Below, one piece after another: positions 1,025 to 43,552 of a stretch of DNA of 44,979 nucleotides. The notes under the pieces were generated by a model, which was given only the letters and a program-made list of their open reading frames with translations, was not told the origin of the DNA and did not search any database. Origin of the DNA: a virus. The stretch covers positions 1 through 44,979 of the IMG/VR virus record IMGVR_UViG_3300046501_000670; one strand, 5' to 3'. The translations under genes and the position numbers were made by a program. Position 1 is the stretch's first letter; every line of letters starts with the position of its first letter.

Positions 1025-1243
1025 CTATGCAGCCTTGTTCGGGGTCCAGATCGGGCGGGCCTGCGCGGCGCGCGCTGCCTCGCCGGCCACCGCCGCGTGG
1101 GTTACCACCGGCCACCCCTGGTTGTCGACATAGTGCCTGATCCCGTTCCGGCGGAGAAAGGCCAGCTGCGTCGCTCGGGTATGGGCGCGCGTCAGCTCGG
1201 CGATCTCCTCGCGGGACAGGCACAGCTTATCGTCAGCCGCCAT
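1025..1243 (-). CDS. DUF4224 small protein beside integrase
   Basis: This 72-residue protein contains the pattern LSREEIAELT...LRRNGIRHYVDNQGWPVV, typical of DUF4224 proteins, which often sit next to phage integrases. The ATG at 1243 is preceded by a strong AAGGAGGTG ribosome site, which decides the start over longer in-frame readings. It overlaps the end of the ASCH gene by 11 bases and ends one base before the integrase start. The position suggests a recombination directionality factor (excisionase). That is inference: the fold looks like a small helix-turn-helix and no function can be read directly. Confidence 0.85.
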   Translation of the reverse strand: MAADDKLCLSREEIAELTRAHTRATQLAFLRRNGIRHYVDNQGWPVVTHAAVAGEAARAAQARPIWTPNKAA

Positions 1244-1931
1244 GCGGCACCTCCTTCTCGATTCGTTTGAACTCCACGACCCAGACCCACGGGTTCGCGG
1301 CCCAGCTGCCGGCGCCGTTGATCGATTCCCACACGGCGGCGAACCCGTGCACGGACGCCGGCGCGACGACGCTCTTCCAGGGCGTCGGACCGCCCATGAA
1401 TTTCTGGACGCCCTCGTCCCATGCGCTCTGCTCGCTGACATCCTGCAACCGCTCCACGCGCACGGCGGTCACCTCCAGGGTGATCCGACTGGCCCAGCGG
1501 GGCATGTGGATGGGCGATCTGGTTCTGCCCACCCACTCCGCATCCCAGGGCGAATAGGCATCGTCGTTGACGAATCGGGCCGTGTCGTCGTGCGCGCGCG
1601 AGCCGCCGGCCGCGTAGGCGACCGTCAAACCGTTCTCGTGGGGTAGGGCCGACGATGGAGTCGCGTCCCAGCGGCGAGCCACCCGCCACGCCTCCTTCAC
1701 CCAGAGCCGGTCTCCGACCTGGCCGTAGGGGCAGCGAAAGCCCTTCGTCATCTCCAGGCTGCCGGCGATGTGGAACAGGCCACCATTGGAGAAGCTGCGT
1801 GCCTGGCTGAACCTCTCGTTGACCCCAGGCAGCCAGGGGATGTCTTTGACCACCCGCCGCGTCACCGTCTTGCGGCCCTCGAGGATGGCGCGCACCATCG
1901 TTGCACTGAATAGGATGGGGAGTTCACGCAT
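1233..1931 (-). CDS. ASCH/PUA-like phage protein
   Basis: A 232-residue protein beginning RELPILFSATMVRAILEGRKTVTRR, with CPYGQVGDRLWVKE and PIHMPRWASRITLEVT further on. This arrangement is common in a phage family related to ASCH domains, which are beta-barrel folds thought to bind RNA or modified nucleotides. The exact biochemical role is unknown. Its ATG at 1931 overlaps, on the opposite strand, the likely start codon of the membrane-protein gene at 1930, so both genes begin on the same GCATGG. The ribosome site is weak (GGAA). It belongs to the leftward operon, immediately upstream of DUF4224 and int. Confidence 0.8.
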   Translation of the reverse strand: MRELPILFSATMVRAILEGRKTVTRRVVKDIPWLPGVNERFSQARSFSNGGLFHIAGSLEMTKGFRCPYGQVGDRLWVKEAWRVARRWDATPSSALPHENGLTVAYAAGGSRAHDDTARFVNDDAYSPWDAEWVGRTRSPIHMPRWASRITLEVTAVRVERLQDVSEQSAWDEGVQKFMGGPTPWKSVVAPASVHGFAAVWESINGAGSWAANPWVWVVEFKRIEKEVPHGG

Positions 1932-4362: not shown

Positions 4363-4638
4363 TCATGCGGCGTACCCCAGGCGGCGTTGAGCATTCACCA
4401 CGCAGTCCATGTCGGGACACGGGCAGTCGGCGTAGAAATGGCGGCTGGCGTAGCCCGGGTGGTTGAGGCAGTCGCTCGCCTTGCCTGTCGAGACCTCGGC
4501 CTCGTCGGCCGGACGCTTCTTGCCGATGCCGCGTTCCCAGCGCGCCTTGTGCGCGCGCATCTCCTCGGCCTGCGCCTCGGTGCCCTCGAACAGGAAGGCG
4601 CCGTAACCTCTGACGTAAATGGTCCAGTGCGTGGTCAT
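4363..4638 (-). CDS. Small phage protein with Cys-rich C-terminus
   Basis: A 91-residue protein with the N-terminal module HWTIYVRGYGAFLFEGTEAQAEEMRAHKARWERG, a short beta-beta-helix seen in many early phage proteins, and a C-terminal segment with cysteines at DCLNHPG, DCPCPDMDC that could bind a metal. Function is unknown. The ATG overlaps the stop of the helicase-methyltransferase gene (ATGA at 4638-4635), so it is translated from the same message immediately after that protein. Confidence 0.72.
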   Translation of the reverse strand: MTTHWTIYVRGYGAFLFEGTEAQAEEMRAHKARWERGIGKKRPADEAEVSTGKASDCLNHPGYASRHFYADCPCPDMDCVVNAQRRLGYAA

Positions 4639-7145
4639 GCGGCCTCCTGCGCCGGCGGAAGGGTGTCGAACAGGGACGGCATGGAGATCTCGGCCTCAGC
4701 GGCCTGGAGGTGCTTGATGCCGTCGAAGAAATAGGGCGTGCTCAGTTCCACGGCGCGGCCGCGGCGTCCGGCGCGGATGGCGCGCAGCGGCACCGTGAAC
4801 AGCCCGCCGAACGGATCGAAGACCAGCTCACCGCGGTTGCTGAAGCGCTCGATCAAGCGATCGACGATGTCGAACTGCAGCGGGCAGATATGGTTTTCGA
4901 GGCCGCGGCGGGTCTGCTCACCGTTCAACGTCAGCATGCGGTTGACGTCGTGCCACACGTCCGGGTGGTGGCTGCCCGGAGCGAGGGACATGAAGGTCGA
5001 CGGCAGGGCGCCGCGCGCCTCCAGAGCCTCGCCGATGCGGACGTGGGACTCGTAGTCGTAGAGGTTCGCCAGGCTGTACTGGGTGAACAGCTTCGCCAGC
5101 TTGTCCGGGCCCAGGGCGGCCAGCTCGTCCACCGTCGGCATGCGCTGGCCAGACGACCGCCAGAAGGCGTGCGCGTCGACCTGCCAGTGGGCGCGCGTGT
5201 AGGAGGCCTTGTCCTTGCGCACAGGTTGGTCCGCGTACCCCTTCGTCCGGTCGGTCTGCGGCTTGTGCAGGAGCACGATGTACTCCGGGCTGCCGACGCC
5301 CATCTTTGTGCCGTCCTTGCACTGCTCCGACCAGCCGAGCCGGTAGGTCTGGTTGTTCTCGCGCACCACGTCCGTCACGACCGTGATCAGGCCCATGTAG
5401 TCGAAGCCATGGGACCGGTAGTGGAAGATCGCTTCGGCGTGGAAGGGGCTGACAGTGGGGACGCCGGCACCGGTGACGGCGCCAAACTCAATACGGTCCT
5501 TGACGTGGATCGCGGCGACGCGGCCAGGCTTCAGGATCCGCAGCAGCTCCTTGGACAGGAAGTCCATCTGCGCCCAGAAATGCGCGTTGTCGTCGGTGTG
5601 CCCGAAATCGTTGTAGCTCGGGCTGTACTCGTAGTGGTTGGCGAACGGGATCGACGTAACCACAAGGTCGACCGAGTTGTCGGCCATGGTGCGCGTCTCG
5701 GCGACGCAGTCGTTGTTCGCCACCACCCAATCGCGGCCGCTGACCTCGATGCGCTCGACGCCGATGGAGCGCGACAGCACGTCAGCCATCGCCGCGTGGC
5801 TCAGACCGTATTCCCGGATGATCTCGCTCATTTTCCCCACCATGATGTCGTGTCGGGTCCACTTCGCCTGCAGCGTGGCGAGCACTTCGCGCTCGCTCTC
5901 GGCGTAGACGATCCAGATCTCGACCGGGTGGCGCTGCTGGAACCGCTGGATGCGGTGAATGGACTGAATAAAGTCGTTGAACTTGAAGCCGATGCCGGCG
6001 TACACGGCCTTGTGGCAGTGCCGCTGGAAGTTGCAGCCGCTTCCCATCAGGACGGGCTTGCCGGACAACCGGGCGATCTCGCCCTCGCTGAAGCCGATGA
6101 CAGCGGCCTCTCGGTCGTCCAGATCTTGCTCGCCGTAAACGCTGACCACGCCGGGCACGGCCGAGGCGATCGCGTGGCGCTCCGCTTCGAGGTCGTGCCA
6201 GATCAGGAAGTGATCGTCGGCGTTGTCCGCGAGGATCCGGCTCACCGCCGCGACGCGGGCCGGCAGGGTGTCGCGCTTCTCCCGCGCCGCGTCGCGAAGA
6301 CCCATCGCCGCGTCACGGAAGAGGTTGCCCTGGCCATCCCGATCAGCCTCGGCGCTCCCGTGATCGACGGGCACCTCGACGTAGTGGATCGTCAGCGGCG
6401 GCAGGTCGTAGCCTTCGTCGCTGAAGCCCAGGTCCGATGGCCGCTGCAGGAACAACGCCCACGAGGCGACCCATAGCCAGAACTCACGCTCCTTATGCGG
6501 GTACAGCGTCAGGTTGTTCGCCTTCGTGCTGTCGCGCTTGAACCAGCGCGTCAGGGCCTGGCCCGTGTCCATCACGCCGAGGAAGCCGGCGTAGTGGATC
6601 AGCTCCTTGTAGCGGTTCGGCGAGGGCGTGGCTGTGGCGACGAAGCGGAAGCGCACGGCCTCGAACAGCGAGAGGAACGCCTGGTAGGTCTTCGAGCCGA
6701 AGCTGCGCAGCACGGAAGCCTCGTCCAGGCTGGCGACCGCGAACACGTTCGGGTCCAGCTTGCCGTCCCGCACGCTCTCGTAGTTGGTCAGGTGGACGCC
6801 GGTGAAGTCGAGGTCGACCTCGGCCGTGGTACGGATGAACCGCGTCTCGATGCCCAGCATGGCGGCGTCGCGACGGAACTCCTGGCGCACGCCAAGCGGC
6901 ACCACGATCAGCCCGGCGCCGCTGGCGTGGGCCATGGCCAGCCGGACGACCTCCAGCTGCTGCACGCTCTTGCCCAAGCCGAAGGCCTCGAACAGCGCGC
7001 GGCGGCCGCCGGCGCATGCCCAGCGCACGGCGGCGCGCTGGTGAGGCAGCAGGATCGGGTGCACGTCCTCGTCGGCGACGTCGAAGCCGGCCGAGGGCGC
7101 CATACGGACCTTGCGCTCGAGGAAATCGCGATATGGGTCGGTCAT
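4635..7145 (-). CDS. SF2 helicase-DNA methyltransferase fusion
   Basis: An 836-residue fusion. Residues 1-430 are a superfamily 2 (SNF2-like) helicase: LLPHQ at 32-36, Walker A GLGKS at 56-60, DEAS at 141-144, TATPSPN at 171-177, and motif VI SIHRIQRFQQ at 395-404. Residues 465-836 are an amino-methyltransferase. They carry the target-site motif TSIPFANHYEY at 497-507 and the SAM-binding motif FDPFGGLFTVP at 776-786, placed last, which is a permuted order. Motif IV reads SIPF rather than the classical (S/D/N)PP(Y/F/W), so base specificity or activity may be altered. The start at 7145 overlaps the previous stop (ATGA). The frame is open upstream to 7652, but that stretch is covered by two better genes. 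By analogy with P1 DarB, which also joins a helicase and a methylase, protection from restriction is plausible. A replication role is the alternative. Confidence 0.87.
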   Translation of the reverse strand: MTDPYRDFLERKVRMAPSAGFDVADEDVHPILLPHQRAAVRWACAGGRRALFEAFGLGKSVQQLEVVRLAMAHASGAGLIVVPLGVRQEFRRDAAMLGIETRFIRTTAEVDLDFTGVHLTNYESVRDGKLDPNVFAVASLDEASVLRSFGSKTYQAFLSLFEAVRFRFVATATPSPNRYKELIHYAGFLGVMDTGQALTRWFKRDSTKANNLTLYPHKEREFWLWVASWALFLQRPSDLGFSDEGYDLPPLTIHYVEVPVDHGSAEADRDGQGNLFRDAAMGLRDAAREKRDTLPARVAAVSRILADNADDHFLIWHDLEAERHAIASAVPGVVSVYGEQDLDDREAAVIGFSEGEIARLSGKPVLMGSGCNFQRHCHKAVYAGIGFKFNDFIQSIHRIQRFQQRHPVEIWIVYAESEREVLATLQAKWTRHDIMVGKMSEIIREYGLSHAAMADVLSRSIGVERIEVSGRDWVVANNDCVAETRTMADNSVDLVVTSIPFANHYEYSPSYNDFGHTDDNAHFWAQMDFLSKELLRILKPGRVAAIHVKDRIEFGAVTGAGVPTVSPFHAEAIFHYRSHGFDYMGLITVVTDVVRENNQTYRLGWSEQCKDGTKMGVGSPEYIVLLHKPQTDRTKGYADQPVRKDKASYTRAHWQVDAHAFWRSSGQRMPTVDELAALGPDKLAKLFTQYSLANLYDYESHVRIGEALEARGALPSTFMSLAPGSHHPDVWHDVNRMLTLNGEQTRRGLENHICPLQFDIVDRLIERFSNRGELVFDPFGGLFTVPLRAIRAGRRGRAVELSTPYFFDGIKHLQAAEAEISMPSLFDTLPPAQEAA

Positions 7146-7351
7146 GCTGCTTCCTTTGCGGCGCTCGCCGGCAAGTCCGGGTAATAGCCCCACTCGTGCT
7201 TCATCTCGCTGAAGCACGGGCTCGGGAGGCCAACGGTGTTTTTGCGGGCGTAGCGGCAGAGGCGGCCGTCGCGCCAGAACTCGCGGCGGCCGGTCTCGGC
7301 GACGTCGTACACGCCGTCGGGCCAGAAGTCGGTCTGCAGCTCGGCGGTCAT
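7142..7351 (-). CDS. Small early phage protein, 69 aa
   Basis: A 69-residue protein (starts MTAELQTDFWPDGVYDV) rich in aromatic and basic residues, including GRREFWRDGRLCRY. I do not recognise a family. The ATG at 7351 overlaps the stop of the zinc-finger gene and its own stop overlaps the helicase-methyltransferase start, so it sits inside a chain of three translationally coupled genes. A helper role for the methyltransferase is possible from position only. The longer in-frame reading to 7633 runs through the zinc-finger gene and has atypical composition. Confidence 0.65.
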   Translation of the reverse strand: MTAELQTDFWPDGVYDVAETGRREFWRDGRLCRYARKNTVGLPSPCFSEMKHEWGYYPDLPASAAKEAA

Positions 7352-7815
7352 GCCACCAGCTCTCGGCAGAGATCCCGGGCGCGCAGGCAGGTATCGACCT
7401 CGAACAGGCCCCAGTGGCAGGCCTCGACGTCGATGCCGAGCTGCTTCGCGAGCCAGGCGTAAGCCTTCGACCGGTCCATGCGTCCGGACTTCCAGAGGCG
7501 TTCGAACACTGGCTTGCAGCTGGTCCGGACCTTGCGCAGCTCGTCGTCGGCGATCGTGCCCAGCGGGATGGCGGTGAAGGGGTGCATGCCGCAGCGCGCC
7601 TCGCACTCGGTGCAGACGTACATCCACGGCCATTCACCGTAGACGCGGCCATACACCTCTACGTGGTGCAGGATCTCGACCGGCGCGCCGTCATAGCGGC
7701 ATACGGTCGGCGCCGGCAGATGGGGCTCCGGCACTCGAGCCGTGGCCTTGCGGCTCGGGTTCCAGGGCGACTTGCCGTTCTGCTCGGTCAGGTCGAACTC
7801 GGCGGAGCGGTCCAT
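7348..7815 (-). CDS. DUF3268-type zinc-finger protein
   Basis: A 155-residue protein matching the DUF3268 zinc-finger pattern: a first half-knuckle CRYDGAPVEI, then YGRVYG, CTECEARCGMH, PLGTIADDELR, and the C-terminal block KAYAWLAKQLGID..CHWGLFEVDTC. The family is common in phage and plasmid early regions and is presumed to bind nucleic acid through zinc; no activity is established that I know of. The first pair of metal ligands is imperfect here (C-R-Y-D instead of CxxC). ATG 7815 is chosen because it fits the family N-terminus and follows the YqaJ gene stop by two bases. Confidence 0.8.
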   Translation of the reverse strand: MDRSAEFDLTEQNGKSPWNPSRKATARVPEPHLPAPTVCRYDGAPVEILHHVEVYGRVYGEWPWMYVCTECEARCGMHPFTAIPLGTIADDELRKVRTSCKPVFERLWKSGRMDRSKAYAWLAKQLGIDVEACHWGLFEVDTCLRARDLCRELVA

Positions 7816-7817
7816 GG

Positions 7818-9605
7818 TCAGGCAGCCTGCTTCAGCTGGTTGGCCGCGTTCTCGATCACGCGCCACATGCCGCGGTAGATCGCGAGCAGGTCACTCTCGG
7901 CGTAGAGCTTCGCGGCGCGCTCGGTGCCGACCGGCTGGAAGCCGATGGAGGCCAGGCCCTCGGCCGTGATGGACAGAGGGGCGATGCGGGCATTGATCTC
8001 GCCCAGCTTCACCGTGCGGCGCGGTCCGCCGCTGGGCGCGGGCGAGGCGTCAAAGGGCAGGGTCGGCTCGGCGATCTGCTGCACCAGCTGCTGGACGGGT
8101 GACGGCGCCGCTGCGACCGGCTGGGGCACTGGCTGCTCCGCGCGCGCCCGCTCCGCTTCCTCGCGCTCGGCGGCGACACGGTCACGCTCGGCGGCAGCGG
8201 CGCGCTCCTGTTCCTCGGCGGCCCGCTCACGCTCGAGCTTCGCCACTTCCTCCTGGCGGATGCGCTCGCGCTGCGCAACCTCGCGGGCTTCCTGCTGCTC
8301 GCGGTGTTCGGCGATGCGGGCGACGGCCAGGTTGCGCAGGTCGGCGGGCTCCTTGGAGGCGCACAGCTGCACGCGGTCGGCGAAAAGGTGGGCGTGATCC
8401 GGGTACTCAGCCAGGATCGCGACGTTGCCGCGCACGCGCTCCGCCGTCTGGCTGGCGGCGATTTTCAGGTTGGCCGCCGCGCCGTTCGCCGCCTCGCGGA
8501 TGGTGGTGATCGTCTTCTTGCCCTTGATGGCCTCGCCAACGACGCTCTGAATGCTCGCCGGGACGTGCAGCGCGTGCTGGCCGAGCGTGGCGTTGATCGT
8601 CTCGTAGTGGGCGCGCACGTCGGCCACACCCTTGGAGACGATCTCGCTGCGGCGGCGCTCCTTCTCGGTCTTCACCAGGCGGTCGAGTTCCAGGCGGACG
8701 CGGCGCGTCTCCTCGGCCACTTCGTCCATGGTGCGGAAGACGGCCGCGATATCGGCGGTCTGGCCCAGCACCTGCTGCTTGGTCAGGTCCAGCTTCTCCT
8801 CGACGTCCTTGCACCACTTCACCGTCTTGTCGGCGTTGGCGAAGTCCTCGTCGGTCTGCAGGTCGCGGTTGATGGTGCCGAGCACGGCCATGGCATTGAC
8901 CTTGAACTCGGCCAGGTTGCTGGCCGTGACCATGCCGGTGACCTCGACGCGCAGGGCCGGGAGCTGCTCCGGAGCGCGGCCGGCGATGACCACAGGCGCG
9001 GCACCGTCTTCGGGCTGATACGCGGCGACGTCGACCTCGAACTGCTCCCAGCCGGCGACGACGCGGGCGCGGCGGTCGGCGTCCGCCGTGTACCAGCAGT
9101 GGCGCTCCTCGACCAGCTCGTCGCCGGCCCACTTCGAGGCCATGAACAGCACGCGCTCGGCGCCAGACACCATGCACTGGTGCTCCATCTGGACCAGGTA
9201 GAGTTCGGGCAGGAAGTCGTTGGCGTTGCCGCCCTGCTGGCGGATCGCGGCGCGCAGCTTGTCGTTGAGCGACTTGTGCTCGAAGGCGGTGTCGCCGAGC
9301 ATCGTGAGGCCGTCGAAGCTGGCCGAGAACTTGCCCAGCTCGCCGACGCAGGGGAACAGGTCTTCGCCGACGATGGCCTCGGCCAGCGGCCGGGCCAGGG
9401 CTTCGGCACGGTGTCCTTCATCGAAGCGCTGCTGCGTCGCGCTGTCGACCTCGGGCGTGATGCCCGTGGCCTTCTCGCGGATCAGTTGGTCGCGGGTCTT
9501 GTAGGACGACACGCCAAGCATGGCGGGCGAATCGCTGGCGTTGAGGTGGGTGGCGCGGTGCAGGTGCCACACCTCGGTTCCCTGGATCAGTTTGAGAATC
9601 TTCAC
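7818..9605 (-). CDS. YqaJ-type exonuclease with long C-terminal extension
   Basis: A 595-residue protein. Residues 1-210 are a YqaJ/lambda-Exo-type nuclease with NASDSPAMLG at 22-31, EGHRAEALARP, D98 in FSASFDGL and the E109-x-K111 pair in FEHKS. These should degrade one strand of duplex ends and load the neighbouring RecT. After it comes a long coiled-coil region (about 300-520) with DUF1351-like sequence, including KIAASQTAERVR, and a charged Glu/Arg/Ala helix. A short terminal module (about 545-595, GLASIGFQPVGTERAAKLY) is often found as a separate phage domain. The fused architecture is much longer than lambda Exo (226 residues). The start is GTG at 9605, overlapping the recT stop (GTGA). 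Confidence 0.88.
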   Translation of the reverse strand: MKILKLIQGTEVWHLHRATHLNASDSPAMLGVSSYKTRDQLIREKATGITPEVDSATQQRFDEGHRAEALARPLAEAIVGEDLFPCVGELGKFSASFDGLTMLGDTAFEHKSLNDKLRAAIRQQGGNANDFLPELYLVQMEHQCMVSGAERVLFMASKWAGDELVEERHCWYTADADRRARVVAGWEQFEVDVAAYQPEDGAAPVVIAGRAPEQLPALRVEVTGMVTASNLAEFKVNAMAVLGTINRDLQTDEDFANADKTVKWCKDVEEKLDLTKQQVLGQTADIAAVFRTMDEVAEETRRVRLELDRLVKTEKERRRSEIVSKGVADVRAHYETINATLGQHALHVPASIQSVVGEAIKGKKTITTIREAANGAAANLKIAASQTAERVRGNVAILAEYPDHAHLFADRVQLCASKEPADLRNLAVARIAEHREQQEAREVAQRERIRQEEVAKLERERAAEEQERAAAAERDRVAAEREEAERARAEQPVPQPVAAAPSPVQQLVQQIAEPTLPFDASPAPSGGPRRTVKLGEINARIAPLSITAEGLASIGFQPVGTERAAKLYAESDLLAIYRGMWRVIENAANQLKQAA

Positions 9606-10372
9606 TGTTCGGTCTCCTCGACTTCGTCGGCAACGGACTCGCCGCGGATCTTCGATTTCTGTTCGTCGGACAGACGGCCCTTCGTTTCGGCCATGGCGAT
9701 GATGTCGTCGGCGCTGCGGCGGCCGTCGGCGATCACGCCCAGCCATGTCGGCAGGTTCTTGTTGAAATCCTCAGCCGGATAGGGCGCGGGCTCAACGCGG
9801 ACCGTGACGGTCGTCTGCGCATCGCCGCTCTGGATGTCCATCATTTCCTCGGCGATGGCCATGCCCTTGATAACGTCGGCGAAGGCGTCGCGGAGGGCGA
9901 AGGCACGAGCGCGCATCTGCCGCATGCGCTTCGGGTACTGCGTCCAGGGCCCGGTCTTGCCGAACAAGCCGGCGACCTTGGCGTCATCCATGCTGAACGT
10001 AGCCACGATCTCGGGCTCGCCACGACGCTTTGCGCGGCAGGTAGCTTTGTTTCCGTCGTCCGTCTCGGTCACGTACTCGCACAGCGGCGAGCTGCGCACG
10101 AGGGCGAGCACTGCGTCGCCCCAAAGGGAAGGGCGACCGTTGATGATCGCGATGTTCTGGATGGCCTGGAGCGGCTTCAGCCCCAACTCCGCACCCCACT
10201 GGATCGCGATCAGGCAGTTGGCCGGCTTGCCCTTGAAGTCCTTGGGCACCAGGTCGCTTTCGGCGAGGTAGTCGCAGAACTGAATCGCCTGGTCGAAGGT
10301 CTGCGGGCTGAGGTCGAGCTGCTGGCGAGGCTGCGTTGCGATCGCGACCTGCTGCGTGGCGGAGGCGTTCAT
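9602..10372 (-). CDS. recT: RecT-family single-strand annealing protein
   Basis: A 256-residue RecT-like annealase that pairs complementary single strands made by the adjacent YqaJ exonuclease. The conserved core is clear: NCLIAIQWGAELGLKPLQAIQNIAIINGR, WGDAVLALVRSS, and PKRMRQMRARAFALRDAF (each shown only in part here). The C-terminal tail from about 215 is acidic and probably flexible. Start ATG 10372 is followed by a Gln-rich N-terminal leader. The 44-base gap to the upstream gene is the largest in this part of the operon apart from the region near 11035. Exonuclease and annealase side by side form a standard phage recombination pair. Confidence 0.92.
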   Translation of the reverse strand: MNASATQQVAIATQPRQQLDLSPQTFDQAIQFCDYLAESDLVPKDFKGKPANCLIAIQWGAELGLKPLQAIQNIAIINGRPSLWGDAVLALVRSSPLCEYVTETDDGNKATCRAKRRGEPEIVATFSMDDAKVAGLFGKTGPWTQYPKRMRQMRARAFALRDAFADVIKGMAIAEEMMDIQSGDAQTTVTVRVEPAPYPAEDFNKNLPTWLGVIADGRRSADDIIAMAETKGRLSDEQKSKIRGESVADEVEETEQ

Positions 10373-13179: not shown

Positions 13180-13899
13180 TCAGAACTCTCGGAGTGTCCA
13201 GGCAGCCAAAGCCCTGCCACCGATTTCTATCTCGTCCAACGGCGCGTCGATCGCCGGGTAGTCCGGGTTCTTGCTCAGGATACGAAGCATGCCTCGGCCC
13301 ACGAATTGAAGACGTTTGACCAGGACTCGGCCTTCCCATCGGAAACAGTACGCCGAGTCTTGGTCAAAGGTGCGAATCCGCGTGTCGATGAAAATGAGAT
13401 CGCCATCGTTGTACTGGCCCTTCATGCTGTCGCCGCGGCCAGTGATGACGCGGATTGCATCCGGCGGCACGCCTGGCAACTTGCGCTCAACCCACTCTCG
13501 CGAGACGCGCAGGCTCTCGACGACTTCCGGGTAATCCGCAACGTAGTCACCTTTTCCCATGCCCGCGAATCCCTCCATCAGAGGGAACCGAACGTAGCTC
13601 TCGTCCGTCTCAAATCTCGGTACTGACTGAGACGGCAGAGCCGAGTCTGCGATCGTCAGCGCATCCGCGACGGTCATATGCACGGTGTCGAGCCATCCCG
13701 AAGGGAGATTTAACGCCTCCTCGATCCTGCGGGCCATGGGATCGCCGATACCGCGCGCCGAAGGATGGCTCGGGTCCAGCAGCCACTGGTAGACCTGGTT
13801 CCGATCCCGCTTTATCGCAGCCGCAATAACGGACTGCCCGCCGTACTCCGACGCGAGGTTGGACAGGTTTTCCCTTCGTAAGTCTTTGATCGGTCGCAT
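13180..13899 (-). CDS. CI/LexA-type prophage repressor
   Basis: A 239-residue repressor that should maintain lysogeny by binding the CTAGC-N5-GCTAG operators on both sides. The N-terminal helix-turn-helix is about residues 10-65 (SVIAAAIKRDRNQVYQWL). The C-terminal half is an S24 peptidase/LexA-like domain with nucleophile S158 in GRGDSMKGQYNDGD and general base K195 in RVLVKRLQ. The spacing of 37 residues equals that in LexA. A possible self-cleavage site is A112-G113 (GFAGMG), which would make it RecA/SOS inducible. No ribosome site precedes the ATG and a -10-like box sits seven bases upstream, so the message may be leaderless, as for lambda cI. Confidence 0.93.
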   Translation of the reverse strand: MRPIKDLRRENLSNLASEYGGQSVIAAAIKRDRNQVYQWLLDPSHPSARGIGDPMARRIEEALNLPSGWLDTVHMTVADALTIADSALPSQSVPRFETDESYVRFPLMEGFAGMGKGDYVADYPEVVESLRVSREWVERKLPGVPPDAIRVITGRGDSMKGQYNDGDLIFIDTRIRTFDQDSAYCFRWEGRVLVKRLQFVGRGMLRILSKNPDYPAIDAPLDEIEIGGRALAAWTLREF

Positions 13900-19329: not shown

Positions 19330-19356
19330 GCCCCGGATCGCCTCCGGGGCTTTTTT
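19330..19356. terminator. Rho-independent terminator, probably bidirectional
   Basis: GCCCCGGA (19330-19337), a five-base loop and TCCGGGGC (19343-19350) form an 8-bp GC stem followed by six T. On the minus strand the same stem is followed by TTTTCTT, so it can also end the protease transcript, whose stop codon begins at 19358. It closes the rightward early operon. Confidence 0.9.
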
Positions 19357-20255
19357 CATTTCACTTGGAACGATATGTTGTAGCCGCCGGGAAATTTCGG
19401 CGCGGCGAAAAACCGTTGCTGGATGACAGCCTCGATTTCTAAAATTGCCTGCGCCTGGATACATAGCCCGAGATTGTTTGGCATGTTGACGACGGGGACG
19501 AATGTCTCGCCGATCGGCGTCTGGACAATTTTCAGCTTTCCGTTGACCGTCTCGTGCTGGTAGACCGCGTGGACAACGCCAAGGAGCATCGTCCGGCTGC
19601 CACCGAAGCTATAGCCGCCATCGCCCGTCGGGATGACCCCGTCCTCATGCAAAAAGATCGGCGATCCGCTTGATCCTGGGAATACGGCAATATCCGCCAG
19701 GAAAAGACGCTGATTGTTGTACCCGAGCGCAGGATGAGTTGCTGTGGTGCCCTTTCGGAAGATGGCTTTGTTATTCGCTTGGTCCCACAAGGAATTTGGG
19801 TAGCCAACCATGACGATATCGTGCAGTGTTTCAAGGCTCTGCAGCGTGTCTTGGTTTGGAATAATCTTCCGGTCTAGCAGCGTTATTTGCAGTTGATGTC
19901 CTGCATCAGTTAGAGGCTGCGTGAATGCGGTAAGGGAAATCGCGCACAGATCCAGTCCATCGGGATGCGGAACCACAGCAAGCTCCGCAAGCGGTTTAGT
20001 GGCTTCAGCATGCAGCAGGCGGCCGGTGCCCTTTTCGCGATATGACAGCGTGAGTGTTAGCGTTTTGGCGTCGGCGATCACGTGTAGATTCGTGACAATC
20101 CCTGGGAAGATCTTGTCCACAGCAATGTCTTCCGGACGGAATGCAAACAAAAATCCGGTTCCTGTCGCGACGTCCGTCCGGAGATGAACCGTGCAGCGGT
20201 CCATCTGTTGTATGACCGAAAGCGGTCTCGGTTCCATTAGCGGCTGCTCTGGCAT
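19356..20255 (-). CDS. Trypsin-like serine protease, accessory gene
   Basis: A 299-residue chymotrypsin/trypsin-fold protease with the full triad: H58 in GIVTNLHVIAD, D102 in GLDLCAISL and S176 in FPGSSGSPIF. The oxyanion-hole context GSSGSP is intact, so it should be active. No signal peptide or membrane segment is visible, suggesting a cytoplasmic enzyme, unlike secreted trypsins. ATG 20255 has AAGGG eight bases upstream; an in-frame ATG at 20288 has no good ribosome site. The gene is less GC-rich than its neighbours, is oppositely oriented between the early and lysis operons and has its own promoter. It is therefore a likely moron expressed in the lysogen. Cytoplasmic trypsin-like proteases occur in bacterial defence modules, but a defence role here is inference. 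Confidence 0.87.
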   Translation of the reverse strand: MPEQPLMEPRPLSVIQQMDRCTVHLRTDVATGTGFLFAFRPEDIAVDKIFPGIVTNLHVIADAKTLTLTLSYREKGTGRLLHAEATKPLAELAVVPHPDGLDLCAISLTAFTQPLTDAGHQLQITLLDRKIIPNQDTLQSLETLHDIVMVGYPNSLWDQANNKAIFRKGTTATHPALGYNNQRLFLADIAVFPGSSGSPIFLHEDGVIPTGDGGYSFGGSRTMLLGVVHAVYQHETVNGKLKIVQTPIGETFVPVVNMPNNLGLCIQAQAILEIEAVIQQRFFAAPKFPGGYNISFQVK

Positions 20256-20296
20256 CGATTTTTTCCCTTCGTTGCTGGTTACGGACATGATTGCCG

Positions 20297-22182: not shown

Positions 22183-22804
22183 CTGGGAGCGCATCGAAGC
22201 CGACTACAGGGCGGGGCTCCTCTCCGTCCGAGAGATAGCAGCCGCGCAGGGCGTGTCCCACGTCGCCATCGGCAAGCGTGCCAAGCGGGACGGATGGGAC
22301 CGGGACCTCAACGCGAGGATCAAGGCCAAGGCCGATGCGCTGGTTACCAGTCGCACGGTTACCAGTGAAGTTACCGCCGAGAGAGCGGTAACCGACCGGG
22401 TCATCGTGGAGGCCAATGCCGAGGTCATCGCCAACGTCAGGCTCCAGCATCGGCAGGACATTGGCCGGGCCCGGACACTGGCCATGGGCCTGCTGGCCGA
22501 GCTGGAGTTCCAGACGTCGAACCGGGAACTGCTCGACCAGTTGGGCGAAGTGCTAGATGGCACGGACGAGGAGCGCGGCCTGTCCGACAAGATGATGGCG
22601 CTGTATCACGCAGTGACCAGCCTGCCTGGCCGCACCAAGACGATGAAGGATCTGGGCGACACGCTGCACAAGCTCATCGGGCTGGAACGTGACGCCTACA
22701 ACATAGGCTCCGGGGGCGAAGGCCAGCCGGGTGGTGGTCAGGTGGTAGCAGTCGATGCGCAGCAAGTCGCAACCGCTCTCGCCAGGCTCCGAGCCGACTT
22801 CTGA
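22154..22804 (+). CDS. terS: Terminase small subunit
   Basis: A 216-residue protein with an N-terminal helix-turn-helix ([37 protein letters not shown]) for recognising the packaging site, a central helical oligomerisation region and a flexible C-terminus ([11 protein letters not shown]). It precedes and overlaps the large subunit gene by 50 bases, the normal arrangement. Start ATG 22154 is preferred over an upstream in-frame start at 22127. Confidence 0.85.
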
Positions 22805-24335
22805 CGATCCGGTCTACCGGGAAGTCCTGAAGCAGGAGTGTGAGCGGGACCACCTGATGTTCACCCGGGTGTTCTTCAAGCACCGGCAGGGCATCAAGTT
22901 CCGCGTCAACTGGCACCATGTGCTGCTATCCGAGGAGATCGAGAAGGTCATCTCGGGCGAAACGCTCAACTTGGTGATCAACGTGCCCCCGGGCTCGTCG
23001 AAGACGGAGATGGTGGCGATCAACCTGATGGCGCGCGGCCTCGCGCGGAACCATCGGGCGCGGTTCCTGCACATCTCCTACTCGGACGACCTGGCGCTGC
23101 TAAATTCCCAGACCGCCAAGGAGCTGGTTCAGTCCGACGAGTTCCAGGCGCTGTGGCCGCTGGCGATTGCCGACGACGCCAAGGCAAAGAAGCGCTGGAA
23201 CGTCGTGGTCGACGGGAGGAAGGCCGGCGGTGTCTACGCGGTCAGCCTGGGCGGCCAGATCACGGGCTTCCGTGCAGGCCACATGGATGACGGCTGGCAG
23301 GGCGCCATCGTCATCGATGACCCTCTGAAGCCGGAGGACGCCTACAGCAAGCCGAAGCGGTCGGCGGCCAATCGCCGCCTGCTCTCGACGGTGAAGAGCC
23401 GAAAGGCCAATCCGCGCACGCCGATCATCGTGATCATGCAGCGCCTGGCCGATCAGGACGTTTCCGGCTTCATCGCCGCAGGCAACCTGCCCGGCGAGTG
23501 GCGCCACGTGGTGATCCCCGCGCTCATCGACGACGCCTACGTCGCCAATCTGCCGGAGCACATCCGGGAGATGGTCGACAGCAGCGATCGAGACGAGAAG
23601 GGCCGCTTCAGCTACTGGCCCTACAAGGAGCCGCTGGACGACCTGCTGGCGATGGAGAAGGGCGCCGGGGCGGATCAGGACGGCGCGAAGGTCTCGCGCT
23701 TCGTGTTCAACGCGCAGTATCAGCAGCGGCCAACCGCGCTGGGTGGCGACATCATCAAGACCGCTGCCTTCGGGCGTTGGTCGGTCCTGCCCCGCATCGT
23801 CGCGCGGAAGATCTTCGCCGACACGGCCCAAAAGACGGCGGAGCGGAACGACTACAGCGTCTTCCTCTGCGTCGGCCTTGGCGACGACGGGAAGCTGTAC
23901 CTGCTGGACCTGTTGCGCGGGAAGTGGGAAGCGCCGGAGCTTCGGCGCCGAGCTTTCGACTTCTGGGCCAAGCACAAGCCGTACGACCACAAGGTCGGCG
24001 CGCCGTTGCGCAAACTGATGATCGAGGACAAGGCCAGCGGCACCGGCCTGATTCAGGACATCAAGAAGGGCGAGCCGGGCAAGGGGCCGATCCCCGTCGA
24101 GGGTATCCAGCGCACCACCGACAAGCTGACGCGCGTCATGGACGTGGTGTCCTACATCGAGTCGGGATACGTGCTGGTGCCCGCCGACGCGCCTTGGGTC
24201 AATGACTTCCTGGGCGAGTGCGAGGCCTTCACGGCCGACGACACGCACGAGCACGACGACCAGATCGACCCGATGGTCGACGCCATCAACGACATGCTCG
24301 CCAACGGCAGCAGTGACTGGAGTAGCTGGGTATGA
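22755..24335 (+). CDS. terL: Terminase large subunit
   Basis: A 526-residue packaging motor. The N-terminal ATPase has Walker [10 protein letters not shown] at 76-84 and Walker B AIVIDDP around residue 180. The C-terminal RNase-H-like nuclease includes acidic residues in [20 protein letters not shown] and [12 protein letters not shown]. It cuts concatemers and drives DNA into the prohead. Length and domain order are normal for the family. It is coupled to the portal gene by ATGA at 24332. Confidence 0.95.
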
Positions 24336-41980: not shown

Positions 41981-42772
41981 TTACGTCACAGGCTCATGGC
42001 GGAACTTGCTTTTGAACGTCTGCATTTGATGCGGATGAAAAGCGCCAACGATCGTCGGGTATTTCATCATTACGATGTGCCGGTGCATGACGGTGTAGCT
42101 CTCGTCGGGATCGTGGAGGTTCTGATAAGTGTCGTCGTGCACGGCATACAGGATCGGAAAAGCAGCGCGCATGACATCAAGGAAGTCGGGGACCGAAGTA
42201 CGCTGGAAAGCGTTTAGGCACCAGTGGTTCAGTTCCATGGCGACGACCGGCTTGAACTTCTTCAACATCTTCGCCGCTCCCTTGATAACGCTCGCCTCGA
42301 AACCCTCCACGTCGATTTTCACGAAGTCAACGGAGCGAAGGCTGAGGGAACGCAACATCCTGTCGAGCTTCTTCACAACGATCCGTTCGACGGTGTGACC
42401 CTCACTGGCCTTCATTCGGTCGGATACATAGCCGCCCGAGCGGTTGTTCGGCGCGAATGTCAGTTCGAAGGAACCGTTCTTCGCGCCCAAGCCGTAGTTG
42501 TGCGGAATGACGTTGGGCGCTACGGCTGTGTTCGAGACGAGCAGGGCGAACGTGCTCGGCGAAGGCTCGAAAGCATGCACGGTTTCAGCCATCGACGAGA
42601 ATGCCAAGGCTGTGCAACCGATGTTGGCGCCAATATCTAGGATCGTGCCCTTGGCGAAACACCTGAACAGGTCGACCATCTCCGGCTCGAATACGGCCCC
42701 AACTGCTTCCAGATAGGTGTCGTCCGATTGCAGGACATAAGGGGTGCCGGCGATTTCTACCGTTGCTTCCAT
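41981..42772 (-). CDS. FkbM-family methyltransferase
   Basis: A 263-residue SAM-dependent methyltransferase: motif I LDIGANIGCTALAFSS (D46-G-A-N-x-G), acidic post-II residue E69 in HAFEPS, and the family hallmark VDFVKIDVEGFEASVIKGA. FkbM enzymes usually add methyl groups to hydroxyls of sugars or small metabolites. GGAG seven bases before ATG 42772 fixes the start; the frame is open to 43369 but that part is the shadow of the SRAP gene. It lies beside the fibre genes but in the opposite orientation, so it is a moron. Changing the host's surface glycans to block superinfection is an attractive inference. Confidence 0.87.
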   Translation of the reverse strand: MEATVEIAGTPYVLQSDDTYLEAVGAVFEPEMVDLFRCFAKGTILDIGANIGCTALAFSSMAETVHAFEPSPSTFALLVSNTAVAPNVIPHNYGLGAKNGSFELTFAPNNRSGGYVSDRMKASEGHTVERIVVKKLDRMLRSLSLRSVDFVKIDVEGFEASVIKGAAKMLKKFKPVVAMELNHWCLNAFQRTSVPDFLDVMRAAFPILYAVHDDTYQNLHDPDESYTVMHRHIVMMKYPTIVGAFHPHQMQTFKSKFRHEPVT

Positions 42773-42815
42773 GACGAACTCCGTGTGTGAATCGTGGATG
42801 ATGCCACCGCGCACC

Positions 42816-42850
42816 CGTTCGTTCCAGCGAACGAAGCTTGGGGGTATCCT
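42816..42850 (+). promoter_or_regulatory. Palindrome and -10 box between FkbM and SRAP genes
   Basis: The 84 bases between the divergent genes hold an inverted repeat, CGTTCG at 42816-42821 and CGAACG at 42828-42833, which can also be paired as TTCGTT/AACGAA. A -10-like TATCCT follows at 42845-42850, seven bases before the SRAP ATG. The palindrome lies where the -35 would be, so a regulator could act there. No ribosome site precedes the ATG. Confidence 0.4.
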
Positions 42851-42856
42851 CGTGCC

Positions 42857-43552
42857 ATGTGCGGACGCTACGCCACCTTCGGACCTGTCTCCCTGAGCCG
42901 CGAGGCCAAGGACGTGCTCGGCCAGCTCGAGCTGGACATCGTCAGCGAGATCCACCAGCGGGACGACCAGTTCAACATCGCGCCGACCCAGAAGGCGCTG
43001 GTCATGGCCAGCGGCGAGCACGGGTATGCCATCAAGCCCTATCGGTGGGGTCTTATCCCATCCTGGGCGAAAGACCCGAAGATCGGCTCGCGGATGATCA
43101 ACGCCCGGGCCGAGGGGCTGATCGAGGGGACGACGAAGGCTTACGCGGGCGCGTTCAAGAAGCGCCGGTGCCTGGTGCCTGCGTCCGGCTACTTCGAATG
43201 GAAGGGCGAGGCCGGCGCCAAGCAGCCGTATTTCATCCACGACCCGGCTGGGCACCTCCTCATGTTCGCTGGCCTCTGGGAAGCCTGGCGGCCCTCGCCG
43301 GACGAGGAGTGGGTGCGCACCTTCACTATCGTCACCGGCGAGCCCGGCAAGGTCTCCGGCGACATCCACGACCGGCAGCCGGTCATCGTGCCGCCCGACC
43401 TATGGGCGGTCTGGTGCGACGGCATGCCCGAGGAGGCCGTGGCGGCCCTGGGCGTCATCCCGGAAGCTGACCTGGTGTACCACCCCGTGCCAAAGGCCGT
43501 TGGCTCCCCGAAGAACAAAGGGCCCGAACTGGTCGAGCCCATCCCGGCGTGA
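42857..43552 (+). CDS. yedK: SRAP/HMCES-type DNA-crosslink peptidase
   Basis: A 231-residue SRAP-domain protein. Key residues are C2 (after Met removal the N-terminal cysteine that crosslinks to abasic sites), N40 in DDQFNIAPTQ, N82/R84/E86 in INARAEG, E114 in GYFEWKG and H171 in DIHDRQP. It shields abasic sites in single-stranded DNA by forming a thiazolidine link. The usual HDRMP motif is HDRQP here. Start ATG 42857 is required to place Cys at position 2; the frame is open to 42794. A phage copy may protect replicating or entering DNA. Confidence 0.92.
   Translation: MCGRYATFGPVSLSREAKDVLGQLELDIVSEIHQRDDQFNIAPTQKALVMASGEHGYAIKPYRWGLIPSWAKDPKIGSRMINARAEGLIEGTTKAYAGAFKKRRCLVPASGYFEWKGEAGAKQPYFIHDPAGHLLMFAGLWEAWRPSPDEEWVRTFTIVTGEPGKVSGDIHDRQPVIVPPDLWAVWCDGMPEEAVAALGVIPEADLVYHPVPKAVGSPKNKGPELVEPIPA

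Follow-up and report, generated by a model that had tools for sequence, protein, structure and literature searches.

An early phage fusion of an SNF2-type motor and a beta-class amino-methyltransferase with a clade-wide SIPF variant of motif IV

The locus described here raises the question of whether a phage methyltransferase that carries SIPF in its catalytic motif IV, and that is joined in one polypeptide to a DNA motor, can still work and what it would do for the phage. The window, by which we mean the whole stretch of DNA analysed, is a virus record of 44,979 bases. The question reaches beyond this record, since the family is widespread and a phage methyltransferase on a duplex-DNA motor would represent a testable case of translocation-coupled modification. 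The fusion gene and its parts are as follows:

4635..7145, minus strand: SNF2-type translocase/beta-class DNA amino-methyltransferase fusion, 836 aa, phrog_16 family, SIPF clade
5817..7085, minus strand: SNF2-like two-lobe motor, residues 21-443 (motifs and AlphaFold2 match to INO80/ISWI ATPases)
4683..5750, minus strand: permuted beta-class amino-methyltransferase domain, residues 466-821 (Pfam, profile alignment, AlphaFold2 match to TTHA0409)
5643..5657, minus strand: motif IV TSIPF, residues 497-501 (alignment of relatives)
4959..5183, minus strand: insert of about 75 residues (655-729) at the position of a beta-class target recognition domain (low model confidence)
4875..4892, minus strand: motif X HICPLQ, residues 752-757, the intein insertion point in five relatives
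4797..4817, minus strand: motif I DPFGGLF, residues 777-783

Architecture and predicted fold

The 836-aa reading frame is real and reads as the preliminary description had it, as a helicase-methyltransferase fusion with the main motifs. A single profile, phrog_16, covers its full length (residues 26-834, E 1.9e-125). The motor contains Walker A (GLGKS, 56-60), DExx (LDEAS, 140-144), TAT (TATPSPN, 171-177) and motif VI (HRIQRFQQ, 397-404) and has an SNF2-like fold, as an SNF2-type SF2 translocase should; the Pfam match to SNF2-rel_dom (E 2.5e-4) lies below the cut-off of that family. The match to N6_N4_Mtase (PF01555, residues 492-796, E 3.9e-10) lies above its cut-off, and no nuclease domain was detected in the fusion with Pfam.

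The methyltransferase motifs follow the permuted beta-class order, with TSIPF (497-501) preceding HICPLQ (752-757) and DPFGG (777-781), and the fold agrees with this class, so both the permutation and the unusual motif IV had been recognised correctly. The claim that motif I is intact needs to be narrowed: D, F and the first G are kept in FDPFGGLF, while the last G of FxGxG is replaced by F, and across the family this position is F, M or G. Motif IV departs from the canonical (S/D/N)PP(Y/F/W), its second-position proline being replaced throughout the clade. The domain is thus a beta-class homologue with a variant motif, for which we infer catalysis.

In the full-length AlphaFold2 model (mean pLDDT 77, pTM 0.68), residues 24-443 match SNF2 ATPases, the best being INO80 (Z 29.3, rmsd 3.5, 380 residues), with INO80/ISWI matches at Z 26-29. 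The full-length fold search returned motor matches only, and therefore the methyltransferase domain was modelled separately (mean pLDDT 69, core blocks above 90). Its nearest structure is TTHA0409 (2zie; Z 23.6, rmsd 2.8, 223 residues), followed by M.MboII, M.BceJIV, CcrM and M.PvuII, and in the profile alignment TSIPF falls on TSPPY of TTHA0409. The insert may, from its position, represent the recognition domain. Since SNF2 enzymes translocate along duplex DNA without unwinding it (PMC5512222), "motor" is preferable to "helicase" for this protein.

TTHA0409, CcrM, M.MboII and M.PvuII share the fold and the permuted motif order with the fusion, but they are single-domain enzymes with (S/D/N)PPY and without a motor. 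The Mod subunits of Type III systems (EcoP15I, Mbo45V) have a related fold with a lower match (Z 17-18); unlike the fusion, Mod has no fused motor, the motor residing in the separate Res subunit together with a nuclease. A screen for linked nucleases of the kind expected in Type I/III/ISP restriction-modification, run on the neighbours of relatives, revealed just scattered HNH genes and ResIII-type helicases, none of them a conserved partner. Membership in DISARM (DrmD/DrmMI) was rejected, as the NCBIfam DrmD profile scored 16 bits against a cut-off of 610 and the PADLOC DrmD/DrmA matches were weak and partial; other defence families were likewise set aside, giving weak partial matches only. 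The phage m4C enzyme reported in PMC4936722 is a 354-aa protein unrelated to the fusion.

The SIPF clade and its SPPF sister branch

Relatives of the fusion occur in at least 600 viral contigs, in 309 phage records and in at least 274 genome-contig stretches, and since many of them are closely related, counts of loci are not independent. In related loci the fusion is 57-90% identical over its full length. The top genomic matches are from Xanthomonas, Stenotrophomonas and Dyella, which is why the host of the window is probably a member of Xanthomonadaceae (Lysobacteraceae); others are from Alpha- and Betaproteobacteria, Actinobacteria, Firmicutes and Bacteroidetes.

The closest among the known systems are the mycobacteriophage "DNA helicase/methylase" proteins (phrog_16, POG0053, DNMT-1 of PMC5050341), which share the full-length architecture and TSIPF, are about 66% identical to the fusion in cluster F phages and differ only in host range and neighbours. 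Girr gp64 (839 aa, TSIPF) is 65.7% identical, and its overexpression causes mild inhibition of M. smegmatis (PMC11075535).

Motif IV proved to be conserved across the clade. Among 156 full-length relatives, viral and genomic and including the window, it reads TSIPF in 145, TSVPF in eight and SSIPF in three, and PPY or PPF was found in none of these proteins from viruses and bacteria of several phyla; of 80 viral relatives, 79 have SIPF and one SVPF. D777 is present in all 156. It had been proposed that homologues with PPY would reveal the present copy as a decayed mutant. This did not turn out to be the case: the fusion's own clade never has PPY, and the SPPF proteins form an old, separate sister branch. 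Pairwise dN/dS is 0.11-0.29 in the motor and methyltransferase domains alike, indicating purifying selection, and together with the clade-wide conservation this rules out decay of motif IV. On these alignments SIPF is a fixed signature of a whole family branch, far from chance, rather than a broken copy, and hence the gene probably works. No description of SIPF in a methyltransferase was found in the literature searched, and it is apparently an undescribed variant of the motif. Apparent frameshifts or in-frame stops are seen, over the range read, in single loci (L285, L301, L333 and L066/L067).

The sister branch includes Synechococcus phage S-CBS3 (gp40), Flavobacterium phage FCV-16, Mycobacterium phage Yorick (gp65 and gp66), Gordonia phage Squiddly, plasmid P2 of D. 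gobiensis and a Rhodoplanes plasmid. Its motor and methyltransferase are homologous to those of the fusion, but they are only about 30% identical to it, have SPPF, lack the 75-residue insert (655-729), which is restricted to the SIPF branch, and are often encoded by two genes. Even when split, the two parts are inherited together: of 80 loci where the SPPF methyltransferase is a gene of its own, 79 encode a homologous motor on the same strand. In 91 non-redundant domains residue 499 is I or V in 46 and P in 45, and the branches are unmixed. They also differ at residues 777 (D in the SIPF branch, S/T in the SPPF branch), 516 (H versus N) and 616 (G versus R). In a tree of 48 domains a single branch with support 100, and a single change, separates SIPF from SPPF; this tree is rooted at the midpoint and so does not give the direction of the change.

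The two versions replace each other in the same locus in two phage genera (Pacc40/Yorick and FCOV-F45/FCV-16). Genes flanking this locus in Pacc40 and Yorick are 91.7, 94.7, 98.8 and 99.2% identical, with some others lower, and in the Flavobacterium pair the identity of the flanks is 97.6-99.1% directly upstream and 88-98% on the downstream side. The fusion, by contrast, is only 25-39% identical across the pairs. Exchange between near-identical flanks makes the versions look interchangeable and suggests that they share one job. Such pairs (Girr/Pacc40-like and Yorick-like phages, all propagated on M. smegmatis mc2 155) represent a natural experiment on the need for the first proline of motif IV.

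Five relatives carry inteins at motif X, just before or at the conserved Cys (HVC/PLQ): mycobacteriophages Dante, Minnie and Pacc40, a [Pseudomonas] boreopolis contig and Micromonospora. Inteins of cluster F phages were reported in this helicase/methylase family, and inteins are said to prefer active centres (PMC5050341). The inteins at this motif X site resemble each other in sequence whether the phage or prophage comes from Actinobacteria or from a gammaproteobacterium (L262:6001-9591, L305:6001-9468, L082, L090, L093), and a transfer between phyla is possible judging from this similarity. In Pacc40 (L082) there is another insert in the motor part, at residues ~250-415 directly after RPSD, which looks like a second intein.

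Could SIPF nevertheless abolish methyl transfer, leaving a dead or retuned domain that merely recognises or flips bases and thereby guides the motor? To our knowledge, proline at the second position is otherwise nearly universal in beta-class enzymes, and its loss, fixed over a deep clade together with the motif I difference (S/T777 versus D777), is in line with this explanation. However, motif IV keeps its S, P and F and motif I its D, F and G, the core from motif IV to VIII has the highest mean pairwise identity of all regions (77%, against 60-70% for the motor and 63% for the insert), and SIPF swaps with canonical SPPF at one locus. As known from M.TaqI, amino-methyltransferases bind the target amino group with motif IV, through its first residue and the backbone carbonyl of its second, and stack its fourth residue on the base. 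I or V at the second position preserves these contacts, and the N6-adenine enzyme DIMT1 catalyses with a motif IV, NLPY, that has a non-proline second residue and is required for activity (PMC8463865). SIPF is therefore compatible with catalysis, and we regard a dead or retuned domain as unlikely.

The same comparison bears on the substrate. N6-adenine RNA enzymes, DIMT1 among them, have a motif IV of the pattern [N/S]-hydrophobic-P-aromatic, and annealing proteins are among the genomic neighbours of the fusion, as would fit a protein acting on RNA or on single-stranded or branched DNA. The methyltransferase fold, however, is nearest to beta-class enzymes of duplex DNA and the motor to duplex-DNA SNF2 ATPases, which makes such substrates very unlikely.

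Genome context and a possible modification slot

The fusion gene belongs to an early operon on the minus strand that also encodes RecE and RecT, with the late genes on the opposite strand. The features that define this context are:

1-1023: integrase
4363..4638, minus strand: 91-aa protein of no family, a neighbour only (Pfam/PHROG search, related loci)
7142..7351, minus strand: 69-aa protein of no known family, a neighbour and not a conserved partner
7348..7815, minus strand: DUF3268 zinc-finger protein (E 5.3e-32), a common phage gene and not a conserved partner
7818..9614, minus strand: RecE-like exonuclease of the early recombination operon (phrog_7655, E 3.9e-195)
9602..10372, minus strand: RecT-like single-strand annealing protein (Pfam/PHROG)
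13180-13899: S24 repressor
22755-24335: terminase

The fusion and its small neighbours had been proposed to form a multi-gene module (4363-7815). The 4-base overlaps behind this proposal are there (4635-4638, 7142-7145 and 7348-7351) and the zinc-finger assignment is right, while "Cys-rich" for the 91-aa protein amounts to four Cys residues. The module itself is not conserved: of 92 related loci, none had the 91-aa protein, one had the 69-aa protein and two had DUF3268, a count in which homologues of such very small neighbours may escape detection. DUF3268 occurs in 561 phage records. The 69-aa protein resembles the C-terminus of a 341-aa protein in the nearest relative and follows recE in some relatives without the fusion.

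The commonest neighbour of the fusion is a C5 methyltransferase gene (13 of 149 neighbours), which is present in 58 of 160 SIPF loci and, in the nearest relative (L002, 89% identical), lies directly upstream of the fusion; the window contains none. It was rejected as a specific partner, since in a control set of RecT loci it is equally frequent in phages without the fusion (17/33) and with it (6/11), and it thus belongs to the region and not to the fusion gene. After RecE, 51 informative loci of RecT-type phages (L335-L414) have the C5 methyltransferase alone in 17, the fusion alone in five, both in seven and neither in 22, that is, one or both in 29. This region looks like a modification slot, in which the fusion is optional (12 of the 51 loci of phages with related RecT). 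Girr and RR1-A have PAPS-reductase-like genes close to the fusion (L334:6011-6925; L089:11076-12287), and such genes are also found among three of 149 viral neighbours; they are possibly linked to sulfur-based DNA modification. A protein of unknown function (phrog_874, E 7e-70; window 1233-1931, minus strand) is found close to the fusion again in 11 related loci.

This context also raises the question of whether the enzyme is linked to replication or recombination, the motor acting on replication or recombination intermediates that RecE/RecT or other annealing proteins produce, and methylation serving to mark or regulate new phage DNA and not to guard it against restriction. The fusion shares its operon with RecE and RecT, in other phages it is found near annealing proteins, RecA-like ATPases, SSB, RusA, RdgC or replication initiators, and the insert at the recognition position is conserved across phyla, as a fixed regulatory target predicts. 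On the other hand, neighbours say little in densely packed early phage regions; the fusion gene is often missing from RecET phages, many of which have a C5 methyltransferase, a typical modification gene, in this region. We suppose that a role in replication or recombination has a limited chance of being the right one.

A likeness to DarB of phage P1 had been suggested as well, implying that the fusion counters restriction in cis, travelling inside the virion and entering the cell together with the DNA that it shields. Both are single phage proteins that join an SF2/SNF2 motor to an amino-methyltransferase, but domain order, methyltransferase class, size and genome place all differ: in DarB, a very large virion protein, an EcoKI/TaqI-like methyltransferase is N-terminal to the motor (PMC5512222), whereas in the 836-aa fusion the motor comes first and the methyltransferase is of the beta class. 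The early recET operon to which the gene belongs diverges from the late genes, and this position argues against virion packaging; a DarB-like role appears highly improbable.

A putative motor-coupled methyltransferase

We suggest, with somewhat better than even confidence, that the fusion is an intact early DNA methyltransferase on a duplex-DNA motor that modifies phage DNA, most simply against host restriction. The gene would be expressed as part of the recombination operon, at an early stage of infection or induction, and the SNF2-type motor would travel on duplex DNA, bringing the methyltransferase to its targets or removing proteins there. SIPF would represent an old, fixed and still catalytic form of motif IV, which retains the S, P and F holding the target base and differs just at the second position, where the sister branch has P and the SIPF clade I or V. 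The methyltransferase would modify an exocyclic amino group, N4 of cytosine more probably than N6 of adenine: m4C enzymes more often have S at the start of motif IV, which weakly favours m4C. The outcome would be modified phage DNA, most simply shielded from host restriction. Among the three options of the preliminary description (DarB-like enzyme, translocating modifier, retuned enzyme), the translocating modifier is the best supported, with motor action and catalysis as its presumed parts.

Several observations fit this explanation less well. The literature searched yielded no enzymatic data and no methylation measurement for any family member, and many members, the fusion included, lack the final G of motif I. 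The insert is well conserved across host phyla, as one would sooner expect of a fixed or broad target than of targets diversified for classical evasion of restriction, and the gene is optional in phages with related RecT; the toxicity of the Girr protein could stem from the motor alone. Tentatively, and with less confidence than in the modification of phage DNA as such, one can suggest that [TS]S[IV]PF proteins comprise a large undescribed clade of active, SNF2-driven enzymes, with a non-proline second position, D777 and a fixed recognition insert, which would modify one conserved target processively, and not site by site, across phages of many phyla.

Other genes of the window deserve mention in their own right. 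A trypsin-like peptidase gene (Trypsin_2, E 1.3e-9; 19356-20288, minus strand) lies between plus-strand late genes and is possibly a moron. At the right end there are a SRAP-family protein of the type that forms DNA-protein crosslinks at abasic sites (E 5.8e-60; 42794-43552, plus strand) and an FkbM-type methyltransferase (E 5.8e-18; 41981-43369, minus strand). The SRAP gene overlaps the long FkbM frame; the real start of the FkbM gene is probably well within this frame.
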